Source: Massilia mucilaginosa
Lineage (GTDB): Bacteria > Pseudomonadota > Gammaproteobacteria > Burkholderiales > Burkholderiaceae_D
Assembly (NCBI RefSeq): GCF_011682145.1
Contig: NZ_WHJH01000002.1
Location: 1 to 64,000, forward strand
DNA length: 64,000 nucleotides
Direction of reading: 5' to 3'
Under the pieces are notes generated by a model that was not told the DNA's origin, made no database searches, and saw only the letters and a list, made by a program, of their open reading frames with translations. Positions 45,390-47,873 of the stretch are shown piece by piece (within the stretch, counting starts at the first letter, position 1; each line of letters opens with the position of its first letter). Made by a program: the position numbers and the translations under genes.

Positions 45390-46544
45390 TCAGGGAGATT
45401 CGCCCGAAAAGGACTGGCGCTCGCGCAGCGTCTCCAGTTCGCGCGCCAGGTTGTCGCGGGCGCGCTCGTTGTACAGGTCCGCGAAATACGCATCCGGATA
45501 CAGCGTGCCCGCGTTGGCCTGCGCGTGGAAATGGACCAGGATGCGTTCGCGGCCGGCCAGGTAATCGGCCTCCTCGACATGCAGGTACTCGGCCCGTACC
45601 GCGCGCGCGTAGCCATCGTATACATCGGCCGCCTGGCCCAGGATCGCCAGGTCCACGCCCTGCATCACATCTTGCAGCGCATGGCGCGATGCCACCGGCG
45701 CCAGGTGCTCGGTGGCGCGGATCAGGCCCGCCACCTCGGCGGCCACCGCGCTACCGTCGAGGTTTGAGCCGAGCCACAGCTGCGCGCTCTGCTCTTCGTT
45801 CGATCCGCTGCCGCTGCCGCCACCATACACCGCATCGTGGAACCAGAATGCCTTTTTCAGCACCGCCATCTGCGCCGCGCTGGCGCCGGCATTGGCCGCC
45901 CACACCGTGATCTCGGTCAGCCCGTGCACCAGGTGATCGAGGTTGTGATACGGCCGCGCGCCCGAGCCGTAGGCGCTCTCGCCGGTCAGGCGCGCGAACC
46001 AGGCGGCGGCGTTGGCATCGTCCGCCGGCCACAGGCTGTCCCAGTCCTTGCGCAGCCAGTCGAGGATCCAGGCCGCGTAGGCCGGCGCCGGCATGAACTG
46101 GCGCGTGGTCCAGTGCCAGCCCACCGGTCCCTGCAAGCCGCGCACGAAACTCGAACTGACCGAGCCGAGGTCGCGCGGCGGCATCACGAACAGCGTTTTG
46201 GCGCCGTGCAGCACATCGACGTTGGCTTGCTGGATCAGGTTTTCGTAATCGAAGTCGGAGGTGTTGCGGATGCCGCGAATCAGGAAGTCGATGCCCAGCC
46301 GCTTGGCCGCGCGCGCCGTGTAGTCGCCGCGTACCAGCACCACGCTGACATTGGTCCACCCCTGCGCGGCCACGCTGCGTTCGACGATCTCCTTGCGCGA
46401 AGCGGCGTGGAACTGCGGTTTCTTGAACGGGTTTTCAGAGATCAGCACAACGACTTCGTCGGCCAGTTCGCGCGCTTCGCCGATCACCCACAGGTGGCCA
46501 TTGGTGATCGGGTCGAGCGTGCCGGAGAATGCGATTTTTTTCAA
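45390..46544 (-). CDS. Pantetheine-phosphate adenylyltransferase (CoaD) fused to an HD-superfamily phosphohydrolase domain
   Basis: 384 aa. Residues 1-158 are CoaD-like: SGTLDPITNGHLWVI (nucleotidyltransferase T/HxGH motif), NPFKKPQF, GIRNTSDFDYE and SVSSSFVRGL (ISSTxVR counterpart). Residues 160-384 match the COG4339-type predicted metal-dependent HD phosphohydrolases: YHNLDH (199-204), FWFHDAVYG with H236-D237, NEEQSA (249-254), ATEH (277-280), VDLAIL with D298, VRAEY and NLARELETL. Ordinary CoaD is about 160 aa. It follows coaE by 3 bp. Probably makes dephospho-CoA; what the HD part cleaves is unknown. Could be a second, specialised copy rather than the housekeeping CoaD. Confidence 0.88.
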   Translation of the reverse strand: MKKIAFSGTLDPITNGHLWVIGEARELADEVVVLISENPFKKPQFHAASRKEIVERSVAAQGWTNVSVVLVRGDYTARAAKRLGIDFLIRGIRNTSDFDYENLIQQANVDVLHGAKTLFVMPPRDLGSVSSSFVRGLQGPVGWHWTTRQFMPAPAYAAWILDWLRKDWDSLWPADDANAAAWFARLTGESAYGSGARPYHNLDHLVHGLTEITVWAANAGASAAQMAVLKKAFWFHDAVYGGGSGSGSNEEQSAQLWLGSNLDGSAVAAEVAGLIRATEHLAPVASRHALQDVMQGVDLAILGQAADVYDGYARAVRAEYLHVEEADYLAGRERILVHFHAQANAGTLYPDAYFADLYNERARDNLARELETLRERQSFSGESP

Positions 46545-46547
46545 GGT

Positions 46548-47153
46548 TCAGCTCCACAGGTCGGTGTATCGGTGATGCAGTTGCAAGGTCAGGGCGCGCA
46601 CATCGTCCAGGGTGCCGTCGTTGTGGACCACGTCGTCGGCATGCGCCAGGTAGCCGGCGCGCGGCAGCTGCATGGCGATGATGCTGGCCACCTGCGCGCC
46701 GGTCCAGTCGGGATTGCGCAGGGCGATGCGGGCGGCACGGTTCTGATCCGTCGCATCGATCACCAGCACGCGCGCGGCGGGCAGGGCCTGGTCCATCGCC
46801 AGCGCCGACTCCCACACCACGTAGGGCGCCTGCTGGCGGCGCGTCCAGTCGTCGGCCAGCGCCAGCACCGCCGGGCGCAGGATGCGTTTGAGTTCCTCGT
46901 TGGCGGCCGGGTCAAACGCGAAGATGCTGCGCAGGGTGCCGCGCGCCAGGCTGCCGTCCGCCGCCATCGCCTGCGGGAAGGCGCGCGCAATGTGCATCGT
47001 GGCCGGATGCGCCGGGTCCTGATGCACCGTGCGCGCCAGTGCATCGGCGTCGATGCAGGGCACGCCCAGCGCGTGGAAAGCGCGCGCGAAGGTCGACTTG
47101 CCGCTGCCGATCCCGCCGGTCAGCACCAGTACCTTGGGGGGAGTTGCGTTCAT
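46548..47153 (-). CDS. coaE: Dephospho-CoA kinase
   Basis: 201 aa from the ATG at 47153 (MNATPPKVLVLTGGIGSGKST). It phosphorylates dephospho-CoA at the 3'-OH, the last CoA step. P-loop GGIGSGKST, CIDADALARTVH, and a helical lid rich in Arg. The middle (GTLRSIFAFDPAANEELKRIL) fits the family, but the rest is divergent. Adjacent and upstream of the CoaD-HD gene, so one transcript would give the last two CoA steps. An operator-like palindrome (47173-47190) lies 20 bp upstream of its start. Confidence 0.9.
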   Translation of the reverse strand: MNATPPKVLVLTGGIGSGKSTFARAFHALGVPCIDADALARTVHQDPAHPATMHIARAFPQAMAADGSLARGTLRSIFAFDPAANEELKRILRPAVLALADDWTRRQQAPYVVWESALAMDQALPAARVLVIDATDQNRAARIALRNPDWTGAQVASIIAMQLPRAGYLAHADDVVHNDGTLDDVRALTLQLHHRYTDLWS

Positions 47154-47172: not shown

Positions 47173-47190
47173 TTTGGTTGCTCACCCAAA
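47173..47190. promoter_or_regulatory. Operator-like palindrome upstream of coaE
   Basis: TTTGGTTGCTCACCCAAA. It matches the site at 47231-47248 at 14 of 18 positions, with conserved TTTGGT and CCAA ends. Located 20 bp ahead of the coaE ATG. Probable binding site of the divergent TetR regulator. Confidence 0.65.
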
Positions 47191-47225: not shown

Positions 47226-47248
47226 TATAATTTGGTCGTTCAACCAAT
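47226..47248. promoter_or_regulatory. tetR -10 box and operator-like palindrome
   Basis: A perfect TATAAT (47226-47231) abuts TTTGGTCGTTCAACCAAT (47231-47248), sharing one base. Its sequence twin lies at 47173-47190. A repressor bound here would occlude RNA polymerase, consistent with autoregulation. No good -35 was seen. Confidence 0.65.
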
Positions 47249-47264
47249 TTAAGTGAAATCACGC

Positions 47265-47873
47265 ATGTCGAGAAAGCCGAATTCGGAGCAGCGCCGCGCG
47301 CAGATCGTGCAAGCGCTAATGGACACGATGGCCGAACATGGCTACGACAAGGCCACGATACAGCTGATCGCGCGCCGCGCCGGGCTCACTCCCGGCCTGC
47401 TGCACTACCATTTTCACAGCAAAGCCGATATCTTGCTGGCGCTGGTGAAGGCGCTCGCCACCGGTGCGCAGCAGCGCTACTTCGCGCTGGCGCAGGATGC
47501 GCCCGACCCCGGCCAGCGCCTGAACGCGTACATCAACGCGCGCCTGGGACTGGGCGACGGGGCGGATGCGGGCGCGGTGGCGGCGTGGGTGGTGATCGGG
47601 GCGGAAGCGGTGCGCCAGCCCGAGGTGCGGGCGGCCTACCAGCAGGCGGTCGATACCGAGCTGGCGCTGCTGCGCGAGCTGCTCTCGGCCAGCCTGGCCG
47701 CGCAGCGCAAAAGCACGGCCAACGTGCAGGCGCTGGCGGCGGCCTTGCTGGCGATGATGGAGGGGACCTTCCAATTGGCCAGCGCGGCGCCGGCCAGCAT
47801 GCCGGTGGGGTACGCGGCGCCGATGGCCATGCAACTGGTGCGCCGCTTTATCGAGGCCGAAGCGCCGGCCTAG
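47265..47873 (+). CDS. TetR-family transcriptional regulator
   Basis: 202 aa from the ATG at 47265 (MSRKPNSEQRRAQIVQAL); a GTG at 47253 is an alternative. N-terminal TetR helix-turn-helix (GYDKATIQLIARRAGLTPGL, LHYHFHSKADIL), then a ligand-binding helical domain. Divergent from coaE/CoaD-HD with paired operator-like sites in the gap. The 3' end overlaps the convergent gene (CTAG, 47870-47873). The ligand is unknown; CoA or an acyl-CoA is an attractive guess from the neighbours. Confidence 0.9.
   Translation: MSRKPNSEQRRAQIVQALMDTMAEHGYDKATIQLIARRAGLTPGLLHYHFHSKADILLALVKALATGAQQRYFALAQDAPDPGQRLNAYINARLGLGDGADAGAVAAWVVIGAEAVRQPEVRAAYQQAVDTELALLRELLSASLAAQRKSTANVQALAAALLAMMEGTFQLASAAPASMPVGYAAPMAMQLVRRFIEAEAPA

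Follow-up and report, generated by a model that had tools for sequence, protein, structure and literature searches.

Described systems closest to the locus

CoaD (phosphopantetheine adenylyltransferase, PPAT) and CoaE (dephospho-CoA kinase, DPCK), the two last enzymes of coenzyme A (CoA) synthesis, are known enzymes, and in eukaryotes they occur as a PPAT-DPCK fusion, CoA synthase (COASY). A stretch of 64,000 nucleotides from Massilia mucilaginosa (NCBI RefSeq assembly GCF_011682145.1, contig NZ_WHJH01000002.1, positions 1 to 64,000 of the forward strand; hereafter the window, meaning the whole stretch) was found to hold a gene in which a CoaD domain is fused to a phosphohydrolase domain of the HD superfamily. 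The finding is real and is larger than the fusion alone, as the same parts recur together with CoaE in phages and plasmids. COASY has its likeness there in viral CoaD-CoaE fusions (loci L198, L274 and L275) and, in the reverse order CoaE-CoaD, in a fusion at L264; unlike COASY, the module described here adds an HD phosphohydrolase, and the CoaE of the window is a separate gene.

PANK4 likewise couples an enzyme of the CoA pathway to a metal-dependent metabolite phosphatase: PMC9352595 describes a pantothenate kinase-like domain with a DUF89 phosphatase, and this DUF89 half keeps CoA synthesis in check, with 4'-phosphopantetheine as a substrate and, when the half is isolated, the oxidised forms of that compound as well. 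The present fusion, whose activity is predicted, resembles PANK4 in this type of joining, but the partners are unrelated, being PANK and DUF89 there and PPAT and HD here. Phosphopantetheine esters are the substrates of the metal-dependent hydrolases AcpH and PptH. AcpH belongs to the HD superfamily as a phosphopantetheinyl hydrolase according to passages of PMC8557913, although the HD half of the fusion has no profile similarity to the AcpH of the host, while PptH is a metallophosphoesterase and not an HD protein.

In snow viromes, coaD and coaE have been reported as abundant viral auxiliary metabolic genes, and the available passages of that paper describe no HD partner, fusion or module (PMC11097641). 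In a word search, a comparison of 224 jumbo phages proved to contain neither a word starting with pantetheine nor a CoaD passage (PMC7824862), and no passage on CoA, pantetheine or HD domains was found in a preprint about phage proteins which break down immune signals and fuel NAD+ synthesis (PMC13232231). A passage in a paper on fungal gene transfer gives the PANTHER name 'Phosphopantetheine adenylyltransferase' for an HD phosphohydrolase subfamily, PTHR21174:SF0 (PMC11898892), a hint that a database may already contain a fusion of this kind or a name derived from one. No description of the fusion or of the module was found in the open-licence literature, in agreement with the initial annotation of this DNA (made from the sequence alone), which knew of no described system of this kind.

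The fused gene

The gene and its two domains are:
45390..46544, minus strand: fused gene for CoaD and an HD phosphohydrolase, a single open frame of 384 amino acids with a TTG start at 46544, stop included
46071..46544, minus strand: CoaD (phosphopantetheine adenylyltransferase) domain, residues 1-158, from a TIGR01510 score above cut-off, PPAT/CoaD fold matches and site comparison
45393..46067, minus strand: HD phosphohydrolase domain, residues 160-384, from PHROG 19425 and columns invariant in fused and free-standing relatives

The initial annotation had proposed that CoaD is joined in frame to an HD domain, and the frame does run without interruption through 384 amino acids, with the motifs named for both domains present in the translation. 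An AlphaFold2 model of the whole fusion was confident and showed two domains (mean predicted local distance difference test score, pLDDT, 89.9; predicted template-modelling score, pTM, 0.87), and PPAT/CoaD chains made up all 50 listed matches to solved structures. When the window protein was compared with seven relatives, the ratio of nonsynonymous to synonymous substitution rates (dN/dS) ranged from 0.01 to 0.18 in the CoaD half and from 0.125 to 0.45 in the HD half; both halves are under purifying selection.

A GTDB scan with one genome per species confirmed 115 relatives, and locus counts given below out of 80 refer to the best 80 of these 115. The fusion was uninterrupted, with a length of 373-394 amino acids, in all 80 fetched loci. 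Its hosts are Massilia, Undibacterium, Duganella, Janthinobacterium, Rugamonas and Pseudoduganella, together with metagenome-assembled genomes labelled Rhodocyclaceae, Burkholderiaceae, Herbaspirillum and Myxococcales (this last label may reflect mis-binning). Among 294 sampled Oxalobacteraceae genomes, 74 carried the full-length fusion (counted as listed rows with E below 1e-130), representing 9 of 44 genus groups; it was present in pieces in one genome of 48% completeness (G231), which is outside the 74. A stop inside the matched stretch was reported in 8 of the 74 rows, but in each of the 30 rows for which a locus was available (they include three of the eight) the frame ran for 371-388 codons before its first stop, which is therefore the terminal one. 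In a sample of 274 genomes across the class the fusion was detected at E <= 1e-25 in the window's own genome only, so that it is mainly a family-level trait.

These data bear on whether the gene could be a sequencing or assembly artefact, or a chance joining without meaning. With every fetched relative uninterrupted, 74 of 294 family genomes positive and purifying selection acting on both halves, the probability of this is practically nil, and intact frames in 80 loci, together with the full-length fusion in 74 genomes, rule out an artefact or a fusion confined to a single strain. The three observations that the initial annotation had named as fatal to its proposal (an interdomain stop codon, homologues lacking the HD ligands, restriction to one strain) were looked for and none was found.

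The CoaD half

The CoaD part of the window protein scored 116.9 bits against TIGR01510, above the equivalog cut-off of 103.3, which was also passed by seven phage or plasmid CoaD (P0002, L136, L195, L122, L198, L250 and L264) and by the host's own CoaD, that is by all nine CoaD parts scored. The PPAT catalytic residues T9, D11, H17, K41, R90, R93, N108, S130 and S131 are invariant in the 81 fusion proteins compared (the window's included), and S132 is kept in 80 of them, with G in the remaining one; the TxDPxxxGH and SSS-type nucleotide motifs and the residues known as K42, R88, R91 and N106 in E. coli are thereby accounted for. In its equivalog score, its match to the solved PPAT fold and its catalytic residues the half is thus like CoaD; it is unlike canonical CoaD in belonging to a separate group with phage and plasmid members, in the replacement of Glu134, in its fusion to HD and in being a second genomic copy. 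That group forms a branch of the CoaD tree (support 97/83) containing the fusions and the CoaD of Variovorax, L118, L135, L136, L195 and the bacterial genome G766 (the last being the one free CoaD of the group in the 274-genome class sample), apart from 18 canonical CoaD; the tree was midpoint-rooted and has four long branches, and its inner order is unsure. A recent duplication of the host CoaD was rejected as the source, the fusion CoaD grouping on this branch with plasmid and phage CoaD and apart from that of the host.

Glu134 of E. coli CoaD, which we take to be an acceptor-side residue along with T10, K42, R88 and N106, corresponds to Gly136 in the window protein. The position is occupied by G, A, S or N in 24 of 24 fusions and by E in 17 of 17 canonical CoaD; it is G in all six related free CoaD (including L202, just outside the 97/83 branch), and seven of nine other viral CoaD compared, L198 among them, keep E, so that the replacement marks the CoaD group and not the module. 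In 23 bacterial fusions, moreover, F replaces Y7 and L replaces F11. The acceptor may therefore differ, and it is conceivable that the accessory CoaD and CoaE act on a different phosphorylated acceptor, the module then making another nucleotide conjugate; the loss of Glu134, the two further substitutions and the separation from the host CoaD would all fit. We nevertheless regard this as doubtful, given that nine of nine CoaD parts exceed the PPAT equivalog cut-off, that T10, K42, R88 and N106 (E. coli numbers) are retained in the bacterial fusions, and that a partner of the dephospho-CoA kinase type suits CoA. We know of no CoaD family definition that rests on Glu134, and its replacement lowers confidence in the substrate, not in the family call. 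The CoaD half is probably, and with good confidence, a working PPAT.

The HD half

The initial annotation had called the HD part COG4339-like, a label of its own, and had recommended a domain search: residues 160-384 matched PHROG 19425 'phosphohydrolase' (E 1.7e-19, profile positions 14-204 of 207), but a Pfam search matched zero families, even at E 10. A single-sequence search of solved structures with the HD half gave no match, and a profile search of PDB sequences returned mainly YedJ-type HD proteins, weakly (best E 0.005). Conserved in the half are YHNLDH (199-204), HD (236-237), E250, T278, D298, E319 and N365. Of the H...HD...D metal ligands, H200, H204, H236 and D237 are invariant in 81 of 81 fusion proteins and D298 is present in 80, being N in L068 alone (the HD half of L068 is possibly inactive), and the equivalents of the HD ligands are invariant in all 24 rows of a wider alignment of fused and free-standing relatives. 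Recurrence of the fusion across genera with its HD ligands kept, as the initial annotation had anticipated, was thus borne out, D298N being the one departure among 81 proteins. The HD half is very likely catalytic.

An AlphaFold2 model of the HD half alone had a pLDDT of 94.4. In Foldseek comparisons the best solved folds were class I cyclic-nucleotide phosphodiesterases (PDE4, PDE9, PDE10 and others), although the matches were weak (probability 0.99-1.00, query TM-score (TMq) 0.51-0.64, E 0.033 or worse among 50 listed), identity to the HD half was 11-17% and the sequence-profile search gave no match to these enzymes; among viral models the best named matches were phage HD proteins. The modelled likeness to phosphodiesterases is a hint, not an assignment.

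That likeness bears on two other explanations of the HD half. In the first, it would be a general nucleotide or cyclic-nucleotide phosphohydrolase within a cassette of cofactor and nucleotide genes, possibly serving counter-defence or nucleotide recycling in phages. Besides the weak fold matches (E 0.033 or worse), its YHNxxH...HD...D pattern presumably resembles that of class I cyclic-nucleotide phosphodiesterases, free-standing HD relatives in phages lie by ribonucleotide reductase genes and near a gene annotated as deoxycytidylate deaminase, and a cytidylyltransferase-NUDIX protein is encoded near CoaE-CoaD pairs in L136 and L244. Direct fusion to CoaD or CoaE in several lineages, with adjacency in five more viral groups, points to a tighter tie than a loosely assembled cassette would show, and PADLOC was negative for the window proteins and gave weak P-loop matches only for P0001; we consider this explanation unlikely.

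In the second, the HD half would feed the pathway by freeing 4'-phosphopantetheine from a carrier of the holo-acyl carrier protein (holo-ACP) type, or from another phosphodiester, for CoaD and CoaE to make into CoA. AcpH, an HD-family enzyme, performs this reaction according to passages of PMC8557913, the order hydrolase, CoaD, CoaE suits a salvage route, the nearest solved folds are (weakly) phosphodiesterases, and next to the module there is a calcineurin-like phosphoesterase, which scores over cut-off in L244 and below it in L275. A relationship of the HD half to AcpH was however rejected: hhalign gave a probability of 1% for the HD family against the host's AcpH (a single AcpH sequence), and neither PF04336 nor any other Pfam family matched at E 10. 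The host, moreover, already has an AcpH of its own (PF04336, E 2e-62), and a feeding role appears quite improbable.

Two free-standing relatives carry noteworthy neighbours or names. On a Burkholderia plasmid (L125 3019-5642) the HD gene lies two genes from an annotated CoA pyrophosphatase, and the relative at L127 4896-5540 is named, misleadingly, 'N-methyl-D-aspartate receptor NMDAR2C subunit' in the database; among the matches listed in a literature search under that name, none was on bacteria by title.

Linkage of CoaD, CoaE and HD in phages and plasmids

Pairwise fusions of all three kinds, CoaD-HD, CoaE-HD and CoaD-CoaE, exist. CoaD-HD fusions were found in three viral groups (L118/L122/L252, L250 and L278), and the 462-kb phage record LR756500.1 has its own CoaD-HD fusion with a CoaE about 26 kb away. 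Four Variovorax plasmid records carry an identical CoaE-HD fusion of 405 amino acids, annotated as dephospho-CoA kinase, whose gene overlaps that of a free CoaD. A 292-kb viral contig (L237) encodes CoaE-HD followed by CoaD, the genes for an HD_4 protein, a CoaD-CoaE fusion and an HD protein follow one another in a 169-kb viral contig (L198), the CoaD-CoaE fusions of the viral contigs L274 and L275 have HD before or after them, and HD and CoaD genes are adjacent in L243 and L249.

For an overview, CoaD domains were collapsed at 90% identity into 51 groups (loci L118-L120, L122, L135-L203 and L235-L280), which are mostly viral, with one plasmid group and some that are probably host CoaD at prophage edges; parts were called linked if fused or on the same strand within 700 nt, and since the sample was seeded with module members its proportions are not population estimates. 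Linkage to CoaE and/or HD was observed in 20 of the 51 groups, ten of which had HD linkage. The 20 comprise groups adjacent to CoaE (9), to CoaE-HD (2) or to HD (2) and groups fused to CoaE (1), to CoaE with HD adjacent (3) or to HD (3). All three parts occurred in 4 of 19 records searched whole, namely LR756500.1, the Variovorax plasmid and the L195 and L198 contigs. A CoaE-HD fusion was absent at E <= 1e-20 from 250 sampled Burkholderiales genomes, which gave six HD-only matches, and a viral search with the module protein P0001 as query gave no match. There is little doubt that the linkage of CoaD, CoaE and the HD domain is real, and its repeated fusion in every pairing argues for a shared pathway.

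A known anti-phage system was considered and rejected, as PADLOC matched neither of the window's two proteins and, of four further module proteins, P0001 alone, weakly and over its P-loop.

Several neighbours of these genes were recorded in passing. The cytidylyltransferase-NUDIX protein lies 0.8-1.2 kb downstream of the phage CoaE-CoaD pairs (L136 6714-7751, L244 5266-6312) and is, we assume from its architecture, NadM-like; NAD and CoA genes would thus stand together in these two phage loci. Hydrolases beside phage CoaD or CoaE include the calcineurin-like phosphoesterases (L244 2638-3432, L275 5818-6420), the HD_4 protein (L198 4464-4982) and a NUDIX protein (L243 4515-5075). The Variovorax pair (L119 8787-20477, on an 801-kb plasmid, one record inspected) lies near a type I-E CRISPR-Cas set and DpdB, a protein of 7-deazaguanine DNA modification.

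Proposed function

We give about an even chance to the proposal that an accessory and mobile CoA module has the fusion at its core and that in it the HD half is a coupled hydrolase acting on a CoA-pathway ester. The pathway is taken to be 4'-phosphopantetheine to dephospho-CoA to CoA because CoaD and CoaE define those steps, and a metal-dependent hydrolase bound to them would most simply undo or clear away one of their products. From the predicted activities, the CoaD half would convert 4'-phosphopantetheine and ATP to dephospho-CoA, which CoaE2 (a second dephospho-CoA kinase encoded next to the fusion, see below) would, where present, phosphorylate to CoA. The HD substrate and the direction of the HD effect are likewise predictions: the half would most likely hydrolyse, with the aid of metal, a phosphoester of the 4'-phosphopantetheine or dephospho-CoA type, and could serve as a flux brake or clean-up coupled to the synthetase, like the DUF89 half of animal PANK4. 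An action on some CoA-pathway compound is somewhat favoured; a role specifically as brake or clean-up, proposed by this analogy, is put forward tentatively, as less likely than not. Of the functions suggested in the initial annotation, control or salvage of CoA intermediates remains the best class, in view of coaE2 upstream and the pairwise fusions in phages and Variovorax plasmids; proofreading or repair of damaged nucleotides gained no specific support.

A number of observations weigh against this proposal. Free-standing HD relatives without CoaD or CoaE nearby occur at 9 loci in genomes (flanks of about 1.5 kb inspected), 3 on plasmids and 4 in phages, so that the HD family also works elsewhere, and it is a Stenotrophomonas phage that has its free relative beside the ribonucleotide reductase genes. 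CoaD stands alone in 31 of the 51 groups, and three of the five phage or plasmid CoaE scored miss the TIGR00152 cut-off. In 58 of the 80 bacterial loci the nearest upstream co-directional gene is sensor-kinase-like and not CoaE2, and CoaE is therefore dispensable there. The replaced Glu134, as set out above, casts doubt on the acceptor. Finally, carriage by phages suggests supply rather than restraint, and a brake is hard to explain in that setting.

A further possibility takes the phage NAD+ reconstitution pathway (PMC12774641) as its comparison. CoaE-CoaD-HD might be its CoA counterpart, with which infecting giant phages would restore the CoA pool or divert it, drawing for instance on 4'-phosphopantetheine that host enzymes have released; HD would process a CoA breakdown product or remove a dead-end one, and the Oxalobacteraceae would have domesticated the set as a TetR-controlled or stress-operon enzyme; this analogy is speculative and improbable as it stands.

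The context gained by the HD family is of consequence, since a family with neither a Pfam match nor a close solved relative is placed firmly beside the enzymes of the last two steps in CoA synthesis. If the accessory module functions as proposed, bacteria and giant phages would own a self-contained control of CoA and dephospho-CoA levels apart from the essential pathway, in effect a bacterial analogue of PANK4 control. With CoaD and CoaE being known enzymes, the HD part is the unsolved and directly testable third component, and the questions raised are what the HD domain hydrolyses and why phages carry the set.

coaE2 and a divergent TetR-family regulator

The following features adjoin the fusion in the window:
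46548..47153, minus strand: coaE2, second dephospho-CoA kinase (PF01121 E 4.3e-34; TIGR00152 86.6 bits versus 65.55)
47174..47189, no strand: O2, operator-like palindrome TTGGGTGAGCAACCAA, by pattern search
47232..47247, no strand: O1, operator-like palindrome TTGGTTGAACGACCAA, by pattern search
47265..47873, plus strand: divergent TetR-family regulator (PF00440 E 1.5e-13; PF13977)

The initial annotation had treated the fusion without its coaE2 neighbour, the TetR control region, the host's canonical CoaD and CoaE or the phage relatives. The coaE2 gene lies directly upstream of the fusion, its stop 3 nt before the fusion start, and its product carries the P-loop GGIGSGKS. Its likely start is the ATG at 47153, as the alternative TTG at 47189 falls in an operator-like site; the TetR gene likewise has a likely ATG start at 47265, the mechanical start being a GTG at 47253. 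Four dN/dS values of 0.32-0.53 were obtained for CoaE2; a fifth, 2.36 for L040, was dropped because it looks like an alignment artefact, probably caused by a stop codon that precedes the true start. A separate canonical CoaD (186.7 bits, TIGR01510) and a separate canonical CoaE (152.8 bits, TIGR00152) are also encoded in the genome, and since the host keeps these, the CoaD/CoaE pair of the window is accessory.

O1 and O2 are palindromes of the type TTGGTTGNNCAACCAA, both in the interval that separates coaE2 from the divergent TetR gene. With one mismatch allowed, 0.10 matches to this pattern would be expected in the window; a slightly looser exact pattern was found in the 7.7-Mb genome at the O1/O2 promoter and at one site inside an unrelated reading frame, which looks like a methyltransferase gene. 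Eight of the 80 loci have a divergent TetR gene next to the unit, and all eight relatives show both operator sites (compared partly by eye, with two between-arm mismatches in some). In L044, where coaE2 is absent, both sites lie directly before the fusion gene. The TetR protein is probably a dedicated regulator of one promoter, and in the Massilia group it would, through predicted binding to the two operators, probably switch the unit. A wider TetR regulon was discarded as a clue to function, the genome holding just the two promoter sites and the one in-frame match, and a scan for promoters and terminators of the region gave no result.

Evolutionary history

In the CoaE tree, CoaE2 of the Oxalobacteraceae type forms a clade (100/99) that joins the host CoaE at 84/84, and the CoaE of Variovorax and phages form a separate clade (97/99). 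The placing of the CoaE parts in different clades suggests that the module may have been put together on more than one occasion. Branches in the HD tree are long, and it settles little; a single clade of CoaD-fused HD domains, from bacteria and the LR756500 phage, was not rejected (approximately unbiased test, p-AU 0.16), so that one and several CoaD-HD fusion events are indistinguishable.

Genomic settings in the Oxalobacteraceae

A coaE2 gene lies directly upstream of the fusion, 1-5 nt away, in 13 of the 80 loci. It was detected (E <= 1e-40) in 14 of the 294 family genomes, all 14 of which have the fusion directly adjoining. The alpha/beta hydrolase gene that flanks the window's fusion opposite coaE2 was found in just one of the 80 loci, and the TonB receptor gene in two, in one of them as a 41-residue piece. 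Where the sensor-kinase-like gene is the upstream neighbour, it lies 28-483 nt from the fusion, within 139 nt in 55 of the 58 loci, and is often preceded by genes resembling a response regulator, a DegP-type protease and Hsp20 (names assigned by eye). This small-heat-shock, protease and two-component cluster precedes the fusion in genomes of the Duganella/Janthinobacterium type (L055-L117), and the gene content points to a likely stress setting for the fusion in the sensor-kinase group.

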